Origin: an uncultured Methanobrevibacter sp. | GTDB lineage: Archaea > Methanobacteriota > Methanobacteria > Methanobacteriales > Methanobacteriaceae | Direction: 5' to 3' | NCBI GenBank assembly: GCA_902777885.1 | Contig: CACYVR010000001.1 | Location: forward strand, 1-60,297 | Length of the DNA: 60,297 nt | Shown: piece after piece, positions 1-51,639 of the stretch | Position numbering within the stretch: position 1 is the first letter of the stretch | How the letters are laid out: each line of letters opens with the position of its first letter | Position numbers and translations under genes: made by a program | The notes under the pieces: model-generated | Seen by the model: the letters and a program-made list of their open reading frames with translations, nothing else | Told to the model about the DNA's origin: nothing | Database searches by the model: none

Positions 1-158
1 AAACGGGTGAGGAATTTGTCAAGGCGTCTGCACTCGTTCATAAAATTGCAGAGTGGGCGGACTGGGAAGAGGGCGAAGATAATTATGTTGCCTACTGCGC
101 AGAAGACCCTGACAAAGATTTTATTTATACGTTCAAAGTATCTTGCGTTTGGCTTTAA
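1..158 (+). CDS. 3' end of an unknown protein (truncated by window edge)
   Basis: An open frame starting at base 3 runs to a TAA at 156-158 and encodes about 51 residues rich in acidic and aromatic amino acids, ending in CVWL. The start lies outside the window. The codon pattern is protein-like and the other frames are interrupted or less plausible. The stop codon sits inside the hairpin at 139-174, which probably ends this transcript. No domain is recognised. Confidence 0.6.
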   Translation, partial: TGEEFVKASALVHKIAEWADWEEGEDNYVAYCAEDPDKDFIYTFKVSCVWL

Positions 159-174
159 TGCCAAGCGCAAGATA
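139..174 (+). terminator. hairpin overlapping the stop codon of the first gene
   Basis: TATCTTGCG pairs with CGCAAGATA and an inner TTGG pairs with CCAA, giving a 13-bp interrupted stem around the TAA. No T-tract follows, so it may act as an mRNA 3' structure rather than a classical terminator. It resembles the AGGTAT-family hairpins of this region. Confidence 0.45.
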
Positions 175-210
175 CCTCGGAACACAAGATATTAGAAAGG
201 AAATATAATA

Positions 211-426
211 ATGAAATATACTGTTTTTCTTTACGATTATGCAAACGATGACAAGGATGTGGCTCTGATAATAGATGAGAGCCAAAAACCTTTGGTAGAA
301 GAAATATTTGATTTTTTTGACGGTCAGCAAGATTGGGGATATACTATACTCCCCAATACCAACAGAGTAAAAGATTATTCGGCACCCGATACATCGGAAG
401 ACAAAGTAAAAAGGAGGAAAGAATAA
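211..426 (+). CDS. small acidic protein of unknown function
   Basis: A 71-residue protein starting MKYTVFLYDY. A ribosome site (GAAAGG) lies 9-10 bases before the ATG. It is acidic in the middle and ends in a basic KVKRRKE tail. The last base of its stop codon is the first base of the next ATG, so the two are translationally coupled. No family is recognised. Confidence 0.7.
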   Translation: MKYTVFLYDYANDDKDVALIIDESQKPLVEEIFDFFDGQQDWGYTILPNTNRVKDYSAPDTSEDKVKRRKE

Positions 427-605
427 TGAGCGAATATGATAGAACGGTTTACTTAGTAAGATGGGAGTGTGGTATTGCTGACGATTGGTATATCGTGGGG
501 GCATATACCTCGAAAGACAAAGCAATTGAAGAAGGAAAAGTTTATCAGGAAAGAAACCTTGACGGCACGGTATATATTGAAACCGTAATACTGCCAGCGA
601 GGTGA
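426..605 (+). CDS. small protein of unknown function, coupled to the gene before
   Basis: A 59-residue protein starting MSEYDRTVYL. The start at 426 is chosen because the ATG overlaps the TAA of the preceding gene (TAATG) and AGGAGG lies just upstream. A longer frame opening at 333 would overlap the upstream gene for no reason. The sequence suggests a small beta-rich fold (VYLVRWECG...VYIETVIL). A terminator follows at once. Confidence 0.7.
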   Translation: MSEYDRTVYLVRWECGIADDWYIVGAYTSKDKAIEEGKVYQERNLDGTVYIETVILPAR

Positions 606-611
606 TACTAT

Positions 612-644
612 ACAGGGCGATGTATTCTCGCCCTGTTATTATTT
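612..644 (+). terminator. Rho-independent terminator
   Basis: ACAGGGCGA and TCGCCCTGT form a perfect 9-bp stem with a 7-base loop, followed by TATTATTT. It ends the two small coupled genes. Confidence 0.8.
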
Positions 645-881
645 GCGGCACGGGATACTTAGAATGGCGAGGTATCGTGGGGGTGAAATACTTAGGATGG
701 CAAGATATCGTCGGCGCGGCGCCGAAGGCATTATAAAGCCGCGCCCCGCAATTTTAAATACTATGCATGCATAGGTATTTTGAAACCAAAATACCTTGCC
801 ATTCGAGGTATCCTCAAAATCCCAATATTCAGGTGTCAGAATACTATGTGCGCCTAGGTATTTAGAAACACGAGGTATTGC
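645..881. repeat. cluster of AGGTAT-type hairpin repeats and palindromes, no gene
   Basis: This gene-free stretch carries repeated units of the form (A)TACTTAGAATnnnGAGGTAT. It includes the inverted repeat AGGTATTTTG/CAAAATACCT around 773-797, the palindrome CTATGCATGCATAG at 762-775, and a GC-rich hairpin GGCGCGGC/GCCGCGCC near 714-752. The same repeat family recurs at 2886-3118 and nowhere else in the window. Confidence 0.7.
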
Positions 882-965
882 CTATGTGGAAAACTATGTG
901 GAAAACTATGTGGAAAACTATGTGGAAAACTATGTGGAAAACTATGTGGAAAACTATGTGGAAAA
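882..965 (+). repeat. seven tandem 12-bp iterons resembling DnaA boxes
   Basis: Seven exact copies of CTATGTGGAAAA run head to tail. Each contains TGTGGAAAA, the reverse complement of TTTTCCACA, a recognised variant of the Firmicute DnaA box (TTATCCACA). At 966-1010 four related units of TTTCACATA type follow in the opposite orientation. One reading frame across the array is open, giving a repetitive YVEN peptide, but it has no ribosome site and looks like a by-product. An origin or partition site is the likeliest role. Confidence 0.75.
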
Positions 966-1012
966 AGTTTCACATAACTTTCACATAACCGTCACACAGT
1001 TTTCACATACGG
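966..1012 (-). repeat. inverted half of the iteron cluster
   Basis: Four degenerate units (TTTCACATA, TTTCACATA, GTCACACAG, TTTCACATA), spaced about 11 bases apart, mirror the TATGTGGAA core of the iterons at 882-965. The combined cluster is 7 direct plus 4 inverted copies. Confidence 0.6.
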
Positions 1013-1126
1013 GGTGTATTATATATATAGTGGTTGAGGGGAAACAAAAAACCAATACCACAAAAAGCCATGGAGCGGAAAACAGAAAAGTTGCAAAAAT
1101 GTAACCGAAAATTACAAGAATGTAAC

Positions 1127-1155
1127 TTGAAAAGCCTGCTCCGATATGGTATAAT
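1127..1155 (+). promoter_or_regulatory. sigma-A type promoter
   Basis: TTGAAA at 1127-1132, a 17-bp spacer and a perfect TATAAT at 1150-1155. It lies in the 1013-1378 leader between the iterons and the winged-helix gene. A second promoter follows, so this gene has tandem promoters and two alternative leaders. Confidence 0.75.
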
Positions 1156-1261
1156 GGATATAGTAAAGGAAGGGAAAACAAAAAACCGATACAAACCGAT
1201 TGTATCACGAAAAACAGCAAAATAGACAAAAAAGTCAAGGAAAGTTTGGTGAAAATGCCGA

Positions 1262-1290
1262 TTGACAAAAAGCTGAAAAAGTGATATAAT
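1262..1290 (+). promoter_or_regulatory. consensus sigma-A promoter for the winged-helix gene
   Basis: TTGACA at 1262-1267, a 17-bp spacer and TATAAT at 1285-1290: a perfect consensus match, the strongest promoter in the window on sequence. The leader carries GGAGAAAGAGGG before the ATG at 1379. Confidence 0.9.
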
Positions 1291-1378
1291 AAAGGTACAG
1301 TAAAGGAAAAGAAACAAACTCCGATACTGAAAAAACAATCAAGCACCTATGCGTTAAATAGGAGAAAGAGGGCATATT

Positions 1379-1741
1379 ATGGCTATTAAGATTACAAAGG
1401 CTCAGAACTTCAACGCAATCCGTGAAATCCTCGTGAACGCTAATCGTCCTGACCTCGTTGCGGTTATTGATCACGAACTCGAATTGCTTGCTAATAAGGC
1501 GGCAAAGCGTTCCTCTACACCTACACGCGCACAGCGTGAGGGTATGCTCATCAAGGAAGAAATCCTTGCTACACTTTCCGCTTATGGTGAAGGGATGACG
1601 ATTTCTGAAATTGTCGCCGCTAATCCAGCCCTTACGGGTATGACTTCACAGCGAATTTCCGCACAGCTCACCAAGCTTATTGGTGAGGGTATGGTTATAA
1701 AGGAGGTCATTAAGCGTGTAAATTACTACAAGGCGGTTTGA
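1379..1741 (+). CDS. winged-helix DNA-binding protein (paralogue of 17380-17760)
   Basis: A 120-residue protein. Residues about 25-55 form a charged helix (DHELELLANKAAKR), followed by a C-terminal winged-helix-like domain at about 58-118. ISAQLTKLIGEGMVIKE is typical of the recognition helix and wing. The gene at 17380 has the same arrangement (DKQIEQLDAKAAKAR, then ITARLGQLVKAGEVMK), so the two are paralogues. The consensus promoter and GC-richer, regular codons suggest high expression, as for a genome-coating or global regulatory protein. Its position beside the iterons fits a replication or partition role, but that is inference. No catalytic motif is seen. Confidence 0.7.
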   Translation: MAIKITKAQNFNAIREILVNANRPDLVAVIDHELELLANKAAKRSSTPTRAQREGMLIKEEILATLSAYGEGMTISEIVAANPALTGMTSQRISAQLTKLIGEGMVIKEVIKRVNYYKAV

Positions 1742-1796
1742 TACCGCCTTGCCCGAAAGGGCTTACTTGCTCTGACACTTGAAAAGGGGGAATACT

Positions 1797-2153
1797 ATGC
1801 CAACCGAGGCAGAAATCAGAAAAATGATGAAGTCGCTTGATTGTTCCCGTGAGGAAGTCTTACAGATGTTAGCAGATGACGATAGCGATGAAATGCTACC
1901 TGAACAAGCGGAATTAACCGCAAAGGCTAAACAAATGGGGAGACGATACGAAACAAGCGATAAACCGAGAAAAAAGGTTGAACGAGAAAGAAAAGTCGAT
2001 ACAGTTAAGAAAGGCTTACTTGATTTAGTACTTGACGCTCTTCAGGATACCGTCAAAATAACCGAAATCAAGAACGAATTAGCGTGCGAATTTGAATACA
2101 ATGGCGAAAACTATGGACTCAAAATCACGCGGCATAGACAAAAAAAGAAATGA
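1797..2153 (+). CDS. basic protein of unknown function
   Basis: 118 residues from ATG 1797, chosen because AAAAGGGGG lies 6 bases upstream; a TTG at 1779 opens the same frame but precedes the ribosome site. The N-terminal part (TEAEIRKMMKSLDCSREEVLQ) looks like a UBA- or helix-turn-helix-type helical domain. A lysine/arginine-rich linker at about 50-75 leads to a beta-strand-rich C-terminus ending RHRQKKK. It probably contacts nucleic acid; no family is named. Confidence 0.6.
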   Translation: MPTEAEIRKMMKSLDCSREEVLQMLADDDSDEMLPEQAELTAKAKQMGRRYETSDKPRKKVERERKVDTVKKGLLDLVLDALQDTVKITEIKNELACEFEYNGENYGLKITRHRQKKK

Positions 2154-2159
2154 GATTAA

Positions 2160-2187
2160 AGCGGGGTGGGCTTGACCGCTCACCCCC
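2160..2187 (+). terminator. hairpin between unknown gene and exonuclease
   Basis: GGGGTGGGC pairs with GCTCACCCC around a 6-base loop. No T-tract follows, so it may reduce rather than stop read-through into the exonuclease gene. Confidence 0.4.
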
Positions 2188-2209
2188 AATAGAAAGGATA
2201 TGGTAAGAA

Positions 2210-2881
2210 ATGGCAAAAAAGAAATTTGTTCTGGTGGTTGATGTAGAAGGTACCTCGCATGGCTATGTATATGATGTAGGTTTTGCTGTAGCTGACTTAT
2301 ACGGTAATGTGTACGATACCTTTTCTGGTATAGTATCTGAGGTTATAATTGGTATGCCTGCCGAAATGGCTACCGCTCACTATGTTAAGAAAATGCCGAT
2401 ATACGTCGAAAAAATTAATCACGGCGAAACGGTATGTATCGGACTGCATAGTATACGTGACAAGGTATTTGAGGTTATGGAACGTTACGGAATAAATACC
2501 GTCTGCGCATACCATGTAAAGTATGACCGTGATAATCTGAACCGCACGATATCCATTGTTTCTAATGGTTTTGTAACGTCATTCTTTCCCGAAAACACAA
2601 TATTTTGGGATATATGGGGTATGGCTTGCGAAACTATCCTCAAAACAAAACGCTATGCAACGCAAGCTATTGAGAACGGCTGGGTATCTAACAGCGGTAA
2701 TATTCGCAGCGGCGCAGAATTTGCGTATAGATATATATCGGGTAACGAGGTATTTGAGGAAGAGCATACCGGGCTTGCCGATGTACTCATAGAAACAGCT
2801 ATTCTTGCGGCTACAATAGCAACGCACAAAAAGATGACAAGAACCGAAATACCTCAGCCGTGGAGGCTCATTCAGAAGTGA
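2210..2881 (+). CDS. DEDDh-type 3'-5' exonuclease-like protein
   Basis: 223 residues of the DnaQ-like exonuclease fold. Exo I motif DxE is at residues 11-13 (DVEG), an acidic residue fitting Exo II is at about D106 (KYDRD), and Exo III is H186-T-G-L-A-D191, the His-x4-Asp arrangement of DEDDh enzymes. These side chains would bind two metal ions and cut nucleotides from a 3' end. Length fits a stand-alone exonuclease domain. Whether DNA or RNA is the substrate cannot be told; proofreading, DNA degradation or RNA trimming are all possible. RBS GAAAGGA lies upstream. Confidence 0.8.
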   Translation: MAKKKFVLVVDVEGTSHGYVYDVGFAVADLYGNVYDTFSGIVSEVIIGMPAEMATAHYVKKMPIYVEKINHGETVCIGLHSIRDKVFEVMERYGINTVCAYHVKYDRDNLNRTISIVSNGFVTSFFPENTIFWDIWGMACETILKTKRYATQAIENGWVSNSGNIRSGAEFAYRYISGNEVFEEEHTGLADVLIETAILAATIATHKKMTRTEIPQPWRLIQK

Positions 2882-2885
2882 ATAT

Positions 2886-3118
2886 TTAGAAACACAAGGT
2901 ATTCCCGAAATGGGGATACCTTGCCTTGTATAGTACACTTTATAATTGAATATTTGCGGCGGCAATTGATCTGATCCGCCATATACTTAGTAATCCGAGG
3001 TACTTTGAAATGAGAATACCTCGGATTCCTTTATACCTAGGAAGATAAGGTATTTAGAAATGAAAATACATAGCGTTCCTTTATACTTAGGAATCCTAGG
3101 TATTTAGGCAAACTAAAT
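2886..3118. repeat. second cluster of AGGTAT hairpin repeats
   Basis: Hairpins include AAGGTATTCCC/GGGGATACCTT, CCGAGGTA/TACCTCGG and AGGTATTTAG/CTAAATACCT. They are joined by recurring TATACTTAGGAAT-type spacers. No open frame is convincing. Seven or more units of the family seen at 645-881 occur here. Confidence 0.7.
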
Positions 3119-3206
3119 ACCTAGTTTGCCGGGGCGCCTGCGGCGGCCTGCTGTCGCAGGGCCCCGTCCCCCCAAGTTCGGAACGTGTATGGGGTTTTTT
3201 CCCCGA
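3119..3206. other. GC-rich stem-loops in a gene-free stretch
   Basis: CGGGGC...CCTGCG pairs with CGCAGG...GCCCCG at about 3130-3166, followed by GGGG-TTTTTT-CCCC near 3191-3206. This is far more GC-rich than its surroundings. It may terminate transcription from the left or be a structured RNA. Confidence 0.45.
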
Positions 3207-3252
3207 AAAACTTGATTCTTAAAGTATGCCCCTAAAATCCCGAAAACCACAC

Positions 3253-3281
3253 TTGAAAAATGAAAAAAAATATGCTATAAT
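3253..3281 (+). promoter_or_regulatory. TTGAAA/TATAAT family promoter
   Basis: TTGAAA, a 17-bp spacer and TATAAT at 3276-3281 followed by ATATATAG. It drives the gene at 3317. Confidence 0.9.
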
Positions 3282-3316
3282 ATATATAGTAAAATGGAAA
3301 AGGAGAATCACCCGAT

Positions 3317-4111
3317 ATGCAAGTCAAAGTTACCCGCAATAACGCCAATAAGCCGCTGCCCCTAATTTTAGAAATGCAAGCCGCTATTAGTACGCTACAA
3401 AAGCAGGTTAAAGAATTACAAAACGAGTGCGCCCGCAATAGTGAAATGATATATAGTCTTGCAGCTGAACACTGTCCGCTTGAAACCAAACTTTCAAACC
3501 CTATCCCTAAAGAAATTAAGGCACACCTTGAATCGCTATCCAAGCAGGAACATTTAGATAATTACGCCCCCGAAAAAATACACGCTGGAAAATTTTGTGG
3601 AGCTACAAAGCAAAATTTGCTTGATACGTGCACAACAGAAGAAAAATCTGAGAGTACTGGCCGCTGCCCAGGAAAGATAGAATATAATGTAAGTATACCC
3701 CTTAAACAAGAGAAAGAGAAGATGGGAAACTGTGAGGCTTTTACAATGGATGCGGCGGCGTCAACGCTTTGTACATTACCGAACGAGCACAAAGTTAGAC
3801 AAGGCAGCGGCTACCGCTCTATGGAACTGTCACCGCTTATGAAGACTATACCTACTAACATTGAGCAGGCAGCGGCAACTGCTAAAGAGATTCCCAAGCT
3901 AGCCCCCGCAGTCAAAGATGTCCTAACCGCTGCCGAGCGTTTATATGATATAATTACAGAGGATGATCAACGCGCTGATATTCGCACTATTGATGATTTT
4001 CTAATTAAATATGCAGAATTTGAACCGTGGAGCGTATATTGTACTGCTTTTGCGCTATTAATGGACCGCTGCTGGTCAAAAAATGAAAAAAACAAAGAAA
4101 AAGAGGATTAA
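3317..4111 (+). CDS. unknown protein with an N-terminal coiled coil
   Basis: 264 residues. A leucine-rich coiled coil spans about residues 18-50 (LILEMQAAISTLQKQVKELQ). A long variable, serine/lysine-rich middle follows, then a C-terminal helical domain at about 180-258 (VLTAAERLYDIITEDD). The start at 3317 follows AAGGAG and its own promoter, and a terminator overlaps the stop. The middle part looks fast-evolving. No family is recognised; a structural or DNA-associated role is possible. Confidence 0.65.
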   Translation: MQVKVTRNNANKPLPLILEMQAAISTLQKQVKELQNECARNSEMIYSLAAEHCPLETKLSNPIPKEIKAHLESLSKQEHLDNYAPEKIHAGKFCGATKQNLLDTCTTEEKSESTGRCPGKIEYNVSIPLKQEKEKMGNCEAFTMDAAASTLCTLPNEHKVRQGSGYRSMELSPLMKTIPTNIEQAAATAKEIPKLAPAVKDVLTAAERLYDIITEDDQRADIRTIDDFLIKYAEFEPWSVYCTAFALLMDRCWSKNEKNKEKED

Positions 4112-11106: not shown

Positions 11107-11332
11107 GTAAACATTTCATACTCTTGCCTTTAGGAAGATATTCTGCTATTGCTTTGCGACATTTTCCGCAAATGTGTAGCTCATGCCAAAGAGATTCATA
11201 CCATAGTGTGTGACGAATTTGTGGTTTCCATTTTCTACGCTCACGCATAGTAAAATCTTCCCATATTTTTCCAGTCTTTTCAGTGTATGATGCCACGGGT
11301 TTTTCGCAAATATCACAACAAATTTGAATCAT
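11093..11332 (-). CDS. small zinc-finger-like protein
   Basis: 79 residues with two cysteine pairs, CCDIC at about 5-9 and CGKC at about 55-58, separated by a basic aromatic segment. This spacing fits a single zinc ribbon/knuckle. RBS AAAGGGA lies before the ATG, which overlaps the upstream stop (ATGA). It probably binds nucleic acid or protein; partner unknown. Confidence 0.6.
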   Translation of the reverse strand: MIQICCDICEKPVASYTEKTGKIWEDFTMRERRKWKPQIRHTLWYESLWHELHICGKCRKAIAEYLPKGKSMKCLLEKE

Positions 11333-38323: not shown

Positions 38324-40597
38324 ATGAAAAATAAAATTTATGATACTTTAAGAGAAAATCTCATAACAGACAAAAAGTGCTATCCTACGCTATCAGATCA
38401 AATGCAAAGATTTGTACAGATAGGCTTTACTTCTTATGATGGAAATGAGGATTTTCTTATGCCACCAACAGAAAAAACAAAAAAGCTATGGGATAAATTA
38501 CAACAATTACAAAAAGAAGAACAAAAAAACGGTGGTATACTAGATATGGATACAGATATTGTATCTACAATCACGTCCCATTCCCCCGGATACCTTGATA
38601 AAAAAAATGAAGTAATAGTTGGTTTACAAACAAATAAACCATTAAAGCGAGCGTTTATGCCTTTTGGTGGAATTAGGATGGCAGAACAGGCTTGCACAAC
38701 GAATGGTTATGTTCCATCTGGTGAACTCCATAAAATTTTCACAGAATATCATACAACGCATTCTGATGCTGTTTTTAGGATGTATAACAATGAGATAAAA
38801 AAATGTAGACATAATCATATTATTACTGGCTTGCCGGACACATATGGGCGAGGCCGCATCATTGGCGACTACAGACGAATAGCTCTGTTTGGAACAGATT
38901 ATTTAATTCAAGAGAAAAAAGAAGATATTAAAGAATTACACCAACAATTATCTTTTTTTGAGAAAATTGATGATAAACTTAAATTACTTGATGAGCTTGC
39001 ACAACAAGTACAAGCTCTTAAAAATATGACAACAATGGCGGATTTTTATGGATATGATATATCAAAACCTGCAAAAAACGCAAGAGAAGCGGTTCAATGG
39101 TTATATTTTGGTTATCTCGCTGCAATTAAATCGCAAAATGGCGCGGCAATGAGCGTTGGCAGAGTGTCTACTTTTTTAGATATTTATATTGAGCAAGATA
39201 TTCAGAATGGAGACCTTACAGAAAGCGAAGCACAAGAGTTAATTGACCAATTTGTATTAAAGCTACGCATGGTTCGCTTTGCTCGTATTCCCTCCTATAA
39301 TGAATTGTTTTCTGGTGATCCTGTATGGGCAACTCTTGAGATTGCGGGAATGCTTAATGATAAAAAACATATGGTCACAAAAACAGATTTCAGATTTCTT
39401 CATACTCTTGAGAACATGGGTCCTTCACCAGAACCAAATCTTACAGTTCTTTGGTCAGATAAACTTCCAGAAAACTTCAAAAAATATGCAGCAAAGATTT
39501 CAATAAATACAAGTTCAATTCAATATGAAAACGACGATCTAATGCGTAAATATTGGGGAAATGATTATTCTATTTGTTGTTGCGTATCGGCAGCAAAAAC
39601 TGGCGCATCACTTCAATTTTTTGGTGCTAGAGTAAATTTAGCCAAGTGTTTACTATATGCTATCAATGGTGGCATTGATGAAAAAACCTTTGAGCAAATT
39701 GGTCCAATAGAACCACCTCTTAAACAAGAAATTTTAGATTTTAAAACAGTATTAAAAAGATATGATAAATATCTTGCTTGGCTCGCGCTAGTATATATTG
39801 AAGCTCTTAACATCATTCATTATTGTCATGACAAATATTATTATGAAGCATCAGAAATGGCTTTAATTGATACGTATCCAGAACGCGTTCTTGCAACTGG
39901 AATCGCGGGGTTGTCTCATGTAGCAGATTCTTTAAGTGCAATTAAATACGCAAAAGTAAGACCAATCTATAATAAAGATGGCATTGCTGTTGATTATTGT
40001 GTTGAAGGAGATTTTCCTCGATATGGTAATGATGATGATAGAGTAGATGACATTGCAAAATGGGTTATGAAAGTATTTAGTAAACATTTAAAAAATAATA
40101 AAACATATAGAAATATTCCAATTACAACATCCCTATTAACTATTACTTCAAATGTTGTATATGGAAAAGCTACTGGCGCAACCCCAGACGGAAGAGCCGC
40201 ATGGACGCCATTCTCACCGGGCGCAAATCCAAGCTATGGCGCAGAAACCAATGGATTGCTTGCATCATTAAATTCAGTTGCAAAAATGCCATATGATTTA
40301 GCTCTTGATGGTATTTCAAATACTCAAACAATTAGCCCAGATGCTATTGGACATAATGAAGAAGAAAGAAAAGAAAATCTTATTGCTGTGCTTGATGGAT
40401 ACTTTAATCAAGGCGGACAACATTTAAATGTTAATATTTTTGGGACAGAAAAGCTAATAGATGCAATGGAGCACCCAGAGAAAGAGGAGTATGCAAATTT
40501 TACAATTCGAGTGTCAGGGTATGCTGTTAAGTTTATTAATTTAACAAAAGAACAACAACTCGACGTAATTCAACGGACTTGCCACAAGGCAATGTAA
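38324..40597 (+). CDS. pflB: pyruvate formate-lyase (glycyl-radical formate acetyltransferase)
   Basis: 757 residues, essentially the full length of bacterial PFL (about 760). The enzyme turns pyruvate and CoA into acetyl-CoA and formate without oxygen. The active-site cysteines are at 418 and 419 within SICCCVSA (a third cysteine follows), then [21 protein letters not shown]. The glycyl-radical loop RVSGYAVKF has its glycine at about 732. Also [21 protein letters not shown] and [10 protein letters not shown] are typical. No activating enzyme (PflA) is in the window, so a host activase would be needed. Preceded by the CodY-like gene in one operon. Confidence 0.95.
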
Positions 40598-50475: not shown

Positions 50476-51639
50476 ATGATAAGTAATAAAAAATATTTTG
50501 TGGCTCTTGTTAATTCATCAAAAGCTTGTCAATTCACTACTTATTATCACTATTCAAAGCAGCCTTTCCGTCAAGCAAAATTAAACCTTGGGGTTTTTAA
50601 TAAAGAAACTCAGCAATTGGTAGGTGTAATGCAATGGGGACGGTCTTTTTCAAAAGATATTAAACTTGAAAGATATATTAAAGAGGACATTGATATCAAT
50701 CAATATTTTGAATTAAATCGCTTTTGTATGGCTGAAAATGAAGGAAAGAATTCTGAAAGTCAAGCCCTCTCTTTGGGAATTAAATATATTAAAAAATATC
50801 ATCCAGAAATTAAGTTGTTGGTTTCTTATTCTGGCAGAAGAGAAGGAAAATATGGATACATCTATCAAGCGACTAACTGGGAATATTTAGGATATTTTTT
50901 GTCTAATGCTTTTTGGAATATCGACGGAATAGAAAAACATACATTAACAGTTCAGCAAGAGTTTCAAAAGCATAAGAAAGCAAATGAAGATTTAAAAAGT
51001 TATTTAAATAGAACGCATAGCTATGCTGTTCAGACATGGACAAAACAATTTATTTATATCCAAAGACTTGATAAGCATTTATCACCCGCGATAGACCCTC
51101 TACCGTATCCTAAACCGTCAAATGAATTCCCCATAAAAACAAAAGAAATAATCTACTGTAATGGAGCGATTCCTGATATTAAAACAGAAGAAAAAGAAGC
51201 TCCACTTTTCTTTTTTGAAGAAGATGAGCCATTGTTTACGCCGCACGCTCTTCGTAGGCAAGCTCGACGAGAAAGAGGTGAAAAGATTCATATCGGAACA
51301 CGTAATTCAGTTGCCCAATATGATTTATCTGGAAAATTAGAAACAACGTATTTAAATATGACCGAGGCTGCAAAAGCTGGCTATCACTATGATGGCATTA
51401 AGACAGCTTCTAAAAATAATACTGTTTATAAAAATAAATTTTTTCGCTTATACCCTATGAACAAAATACCTTTAAATAATATTGAACTTAATTATTTTTG
51501 TATTATAAATGAAAAAATGTTTTTTAAAGCAAAAGATGTCGCAGAGGAATTTCATATTTCAAGACAAGCAGTATATGCTTCTAAGAAAAGGCAAGGAAAA
51601 TTTATTAATGGTTGCGCAGTTATCTGGGGAAATTTATAA
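50476..51639 (+). CDS. Mom-like DNA modification enzyme fused to a NUMOD1-type domain
   Basis: 387 residues. The first about 230 match the phage Mu Mom GNAT-like family: VGVMQWG, FELNRFCMAENEGKNSESQA, LLVSYSGRREGKYGYIYQAT, WEYLGYF. Mom adds an unusual acylated group to adenine and blocks restriction enzymes. Residues about 285-330 (VAQYDLSGKLETTYLNMTEA, then FFRLY) are a NUMOD1-like DNA-binding module known from homing endonucleases, followed by a final helix-turn-helix (KDVAEEFHISRQAVYASKKR). The fusion may give sequence preference to the modification. Confidence 0.75.
   Translation: MISNKKYFVALVNSSKACQFTTYYHYSKQPFRQAKLNLGVFNKETQQLVGVMQWGRSFSKDIKLERYIKEDIDINQYFELNRFCMAENEGKNSESQALSLGIKYIKKYHPEIKLLVSYSGRREGKYGYIYQATNWEYLGYFLSNAFWNIDGIEKHTLTVQQEFQKHKKANEDLKSYLNRTHSYAVQTWTKQFIYIQRLDKHLSPAIDPLPYPKPSNEFPIKTKEIIYCNGAIPDIKTEEKEAPLFFFEEDEPLFTPHALRRQARRERGEKIHIGTRNSVAQYDLSGKLETTYLNMTEAAKAGYHYDGIKTASKNNTVYKNKFFRLYPMNKIPLNNIELNYFCIINEKMFFKAKDVAEEFHISRQAVYASKKRQGKFINGCAVIWGNL

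Follow-up and report, generated by a model that had tools for sequence, protein, structure and literature searches.

Little is known of how replication begins in large phages that lack a recognised initiator, and a compact array of repeats near one end of a phage contig raises the question of whether it is a concrete candidate for such a start site. The array is contained in the window, i.e., the whole stretch of 60,297 nucleotides that was analysed, which comprises bases 1-60297 of the 138,782-bp contig C1 from a 282-contig MAG. C1 is the genome of a tailed phage and has no terminal repeats. Its replication genes encode a DnaB-like helicase, a DNA polymerase of the polymerase III alpha type, homologues of gyrase A and B, and an NAD-dependent ligase, and it also carries 18 tRNA genes and the gene of a Mom-family protein. 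A phage-encoded DnaA was not found on C1; the sole DnaA of the MAG is encoded on a different contig, C10, and the MAG that carries the phage contig need not be its host. The Mom-family gene (window 50476-51639) suggests DNA modification in this phage, and a 757-aa homologue of the glycyl-radical enzyme formate acetyltransferase (pyruvate formate-lyase), encoded at 38324-40597 of the window, is possibly the product of an auxiliary metabolic gene.

The original prediction described seven direct and four inverted DnaA-box-like iterons at 882-1012, and this cluster is indeed present. It lies inside a noncoding stretch of about 770 bp that extends from the end of the last small ORF at about 605 to the gene at 1379. 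Seven exact tandem copies of the 12-mer CTATGTGGAAAA occupy positions 882-965 on the plus strand (100% matches, score 168), and positions 966-1009 hold, on the minus strand, the four inverted and degenerate units AGTTTCACA, ACTTTCACA, ACCGTCACA, and GTTTTCACA, which have 2, 2, 4, and 1 mismatches to TTWTNCACA, respectively. As a repeat family, these inverted relatives correspond to about four copies of TTTCACATAAC with a period of 11 bp (968-1009, 74% matches). Only one of the four is at most one mismatch away from the DnaA consensus, the other three having 2-4 mismatches, and the inverted sites appear to be weak boxes at best. The forward copies are spaced by 12 bp and the inverted ones by 11 bp, so that the 9-mer boxes are separated by 3 and 2 bp, respectively, and the spacing is slightly more than one helical turn; this corrects the originally noted twelve-base spacing of about one turn. 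The repeat run is far beyond chance, with a period-12 identity run of 72 bases, whereas the complete 138.8-kb contig, simulated 20 times with a Markov model, never gave more than 11, and with seven TTWTNCACA-consensus boxes inside 130 bp as compared to at most two in the simulations. Seven of the ten occurrences of the core motif TGTGGAAAA on C1 fall in the array, and only three are found elsewhere in the 138.8 kb. The seven copies are identical, spacer included, which could be due to a recent tandem expansion.

The predicted tandem promoters are also present, as three promoter-like sites on the plus strand: P1 (1002-1031, TTCACA-18-TATAGT), whose -35 region overlaps the last inverted box, P2 (1127-1155, TTGAAA-17-TATAAT), and P3 (1262-1290, TTGACA-17-TATAAT, matching the consensus at 12 of 12 positions). 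Judged by sequence, this region downstream of the array probably contains the strongest early promoters of the phage. A short A+T run, TATTATATATATAG, is found beside the array at 1016-1030 and could be an unwinding element or the -10 region of P1; at 15 bp, it is in the 99.6th percentile of weakness, which is not so at 30-60 bp. On the other side, positions 757-869 contain palindromic AATACCT/AGGTATT elements including TATGCATGCATA at about 762-773, the palindrome that had been noted at 762-775. This family is concentrated near the contig ends, with 25 of its 52 elements within 0-4 kb and 136-138.8 kb of the contig (window 1-3140; L011 16400-18782), and the contig break probably falls within these elements. 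With respect to structured RNA, positions 1-4000 gave no Rfam match.

On the opposite strand, the core TGTGGAAAA reads TTTTCCACA, an exact match to the bacterial DnaA-box consensus TT(A/T)TNCACA, and the forward copies represent seven such boxes on the bottom strand. Most cyanobacterial oriCs have TTTTCCACA as their box (PMC4674748), and the R5 box of E. coli mioC is the same sequence (PMC5835720). In a survey of the basal unwinding system (BUS) of origins, the unwinding modules commonly had tandem DnaA boxes that were at most 3 bp apart (PMC8287927), and the gaps in the array, 3 bp between forward and 2 bp between inverted boxes, fit this limit. We regard it as quite probable that the array is a set of boxes bound by the DnaA of the host.

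The same arrangement recurs in other viruses. Three copies of TGTGGAAAA at 12-bp spacing were found in 38 IMG/VR stretches from 15 lineages, which were counted as independent when they had no long DNA similarity between them; by contrast, each of two control motifs with this composition was found in a single stretch. When the gap length was left free (1-8 bp), 2-3 bp gaps accounted for 43 of the 49 lineage-level cases. A search of the genomes of 84,980 bacterial and archaeal species gave 40 stretches with the 12-bp triple, five of which lie directly at dnaA/dnaN (upstream of dnaA in two Bacilli/Tenericutes-like contigs, and in three cyanobacteria). As about 16 of these 40 matches lie within ORFs that are 150 aa or longer, some of which code for VEK/VEN repeats, the motif alone is not proof. 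In four viral lineages, the array adjoins replication genes, namely those of an initiator or helicase loader (L024, L017), a primase-like protein (L038), and a polymerase exonuclease subunit (L051). Other viral arrays are found among structural genes (the L018 group and L047), where an origin function is less obvious. In the family to which the MAG belongs, none of the 137 further genomes contained a triple TGTGGAWAA array, so that the array is more than a chromosomal motif common to this family, and the family was rejected as the source of the layout. Blastn revealed no close DNA relatives of the array among annotated phages and plasmids, a result in which low-complexity filtering may hide matches. 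The simple motif of three TGTGGAWAA at 11-12 bp can be used to find such sites in further phages. In the phage L024 (IMGVR_UViG_3300035541_000081), a second tandem array of AACAAAGGTGGA at 12 bp (11215-11310) follows a five-copy TGTGGAAAAGTA array beside a replication initiator gene.

The best reading of these data is that the array is the replication origin of the phage, or part of it, and uses host DnaA, to which we assign a probability of about 50%; alternatively, the array would be an early control region linked to an origin, with P1-P3 and the gene at 1379 downstream of it. This reading is supported by the box cluster (seven TTTTCCACA in 84 bp), in which tandem boxes are about 2-3 bp apart, its position in noncoding DNA of the early region, the lack of a detectable phage DnaA, and the oriC adjacency of like arrays elsewhere. 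In this respect, the predicted DnaA-box-like and origin-like character was borne out at the sequence level, by the consensus match, the gap lengths, and the like arrays at dnaA/dnaN and at phage replication genes. The binder would be the DnaA of the host, as the phage has helicase, polymerase, gyrase, and ligase but no DnaA. The 11-12 bp placement would let DnaA monomers assemble side by side, and host DnaA may load on the array and extend from there across the weak inverted sites in the direction of the A+T run (1016-1030). The DNA would then be opened for the phage helicase at this run or at the adjacent promoters, and the abutment of the array with P1 could also couple DnaA to early transcription. 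DnaA binding, DNA opening, and origin activity are all steps that we infer from the sequence.

The layout resembles the tandem modules of bacterial oriCs (PMC8287927) and the oriCs based on TTTTCCACA (those of cyanobacteria, PMC4674748, and the Bacilli-like L138 and L163) in the 9-bp box, the 2-3 bp gaps, the presence of several copies, the noncoding location, and the proximity to a promoter. Unlike a bacterial oriC, the array on C1 belongs to a phage, has no adjacent dnaA/dnaN, and contains seven identical forward copies; a DnaA-trio (GAT/CTA series) was not noticed by eye on either side. In the iteron-plus-DnaA-box origins of plasmids and phage-plasmids, such as P1 oriR, direct repeats lie beside the gene of a DNA-binding protein and host DnaA is used. 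The array on C1 shares with these the direct repeats, the neighbouring gene, and the proposed use of host DnaA, but on C1 the DnaA boxes are the repeat units, and none of the genes nearby was recognised as belonging to a Rep-type initiator family.

The points that argue against an origin or are neutral are the weakness of the A+T element beyond 15 bp, the lack of a skew switch and of a DnaA-trio visible by eye, the lack of conservation in relatives, the location of several viral arrays among structural genes, and the identity of the seven copies, spacer included. The GC skew of C1 tracks the gene strand and switches at about 4, 14, 82, and 132 kb; there is no switch at 0.9 kb, so that the skew part of the refuting check named with the original prediction came out against an origin, although this criterion is weak in phages. 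As to relatives, a single-sequence IMG/VR search with the proteins encoded at 1379 and 2210 retrieved none, and three near-complete phages, G140, G142, and G145, were reached via the DNA polymerase (about 58% identity); relatives above 80% identity were not obtained from IMG/VR. The DnaA-box array is absent from all three and thus cannot be the ancestral origin of the family.

Less well supported than the origin, and in our estimate rather unlikely, is a role of the boxes in which host DnaA binds them for transcriptional control or titration, i.e., P1-P3 would be activated or repressed, or DnaA would be soaked up in a datA-like manner so that host initiation stops. The overlap of the last inverted box with the -35 region of P1 would suit such a role, as would the other operator-like motifs that the relatives have at the equivalent spot, upstream of the three strong promoters of the gene corresponding to 1379, and the position of the array in the L018 group, which abuts a promoter-like site ahead of a structural gene. 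E. coli has clusters of boxes that titrate DnaA, and its datA/mioC-type sites also combine consensus and degenerate DnaA boxes that overlap a promoter (PMC5835720); the boxes on C1 differ from these in being in a phage genome and in being more numerous and more regular. However, a promoter switch needs fewer than seven copies, and the adjacency of replication genes in four viral lineages has its counterpart in the same layout at bacterial oriC. Were the phage to use or sequester host DnaA, its replication would be linked to the replication cycle of the host or would disrupt it.

Behind P1-P3, the gene at 1379-1741 (plus strand) encodes a protein of 120 aa for which the predicted structure (mean pLDDT 84.5) and the matches obtained indicate a MarR/ArsR-like winged-helix fold, in agreement with the original prediction. 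Third in order of support is the possibility that the array is a set of iterons or operators for a phage protein, probably this one, and acts as an origin of the phage, as an operator for autoregulation, or as a centromere. The winged-helix gene is adjacent, is predicted to encode a DNA-binding protein, and is kept in all three relatives, in two of which it also follows three strong promoters; moreover, the relatives have their own repeated motifs in the same region (TTTACATAA; TTTGTGCAA; ACATGTAAA). However, the motif that C1 has in common with G145, whose winged-helix protein is the most similar, is TTGCACAAA/TTTGTGCAA, which is scattered over other early intergenic regions, and not TGTGGAAAA, which would lower the likelihood that TGTGGAAAA is the site recognised by the winged-helix protein. 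In addition, phages unrelated to this one and bacterial oriCs also contain TGTGGAAAA arrays, and no homologue of the 1379 protein was found at those loci. We consider recognition by a phage protein improbable. An iteron origin with a Rep protein found no support, as no Rep-family initiator is adjacent, only the MarR/ArsR-like winged helix; the neighbouring genes at 1379, 1824, 2210, and 3317 had no match to any Rep family. MraZ-type 10-bp repeats were set aside, since period and core differ. At 132.3-137.9 kb of the contig (L011 12320-17900), inverted TTGCACAAA/TTTGTGCAA sites lie upstream of early promoters and are a candidate early operator of the phage.

Very improbable is a functionless tandem repeat, or one left by a coding sequence for a repetitive (YVEN)n protein. 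In favour of this are the perfect identity that suggests recent expansion, the open frame 796-1104, the 12-bp unit being a multiple of 3, and the bacterial matches within ORFs. However, a chance repeat is not expected to match the DnaA consensus at oriC spacing or to recur in 15 lineages versus one for the controls, and the frame overlaps palindromes and a promoter. The frame was rejected as protein-coding because it has no ribosome-binding site, no homologue, including in the relatives, and a codon score of -0.095, whereas the median of small genes that have a good ribosome-binding site is 0.14; the other refuting condition of the original prediction, translation of the array as a protein repeat in relatives, was thus not observed.

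A partition site, which had been named as the other possible function of the cluster, found no support, as the nearest C1 match to the 16-bp parS sequence TGTTTCACGTGAAACA has 3 mismatches and lies at 1201, and no ParB_N was found. In the relative G142 (IMGVR_UViG_3300031867_000007), the syntenic early region (L070 7480-9910) contains two exact copies of the 16-bp bacterial parS and three near-copies, with the exact and near-copy sites being at contig positions 67480, 67510, 69598, 69891, and 64659. A ParB_N gene was not found in G142 despite these sites, and it is possible that host ParB is recruited. G145 (IMGVR_UViG_3300032038_000010) has a single exact parS, which lies within an exonuclease-like gene (contig 127694; L081 7694). 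A more speculative reading, which we consider less likely than not, is that many unrelated phages carry oriC-grade DnaA-box arrays independently, and relatives of the C1 phage carry bacterial parS, because large phages recruit host proteins of chromosome replication and segregation (DnaA, ParB) to their early control region, which would amount to a widespread means of host licensing or host shutoff among phages that lack an initiator of their own.

Apart from the array, C1 contains a low-complexity, AT-rich stretch of about 600 bp with repeats of the ACATATATAC type at 131.3-131.9 kb of the contig (L011 11290-11880). It is located where the late gene block joins the early one, close to a switch in GC skew, and is an alternative origin candidate.
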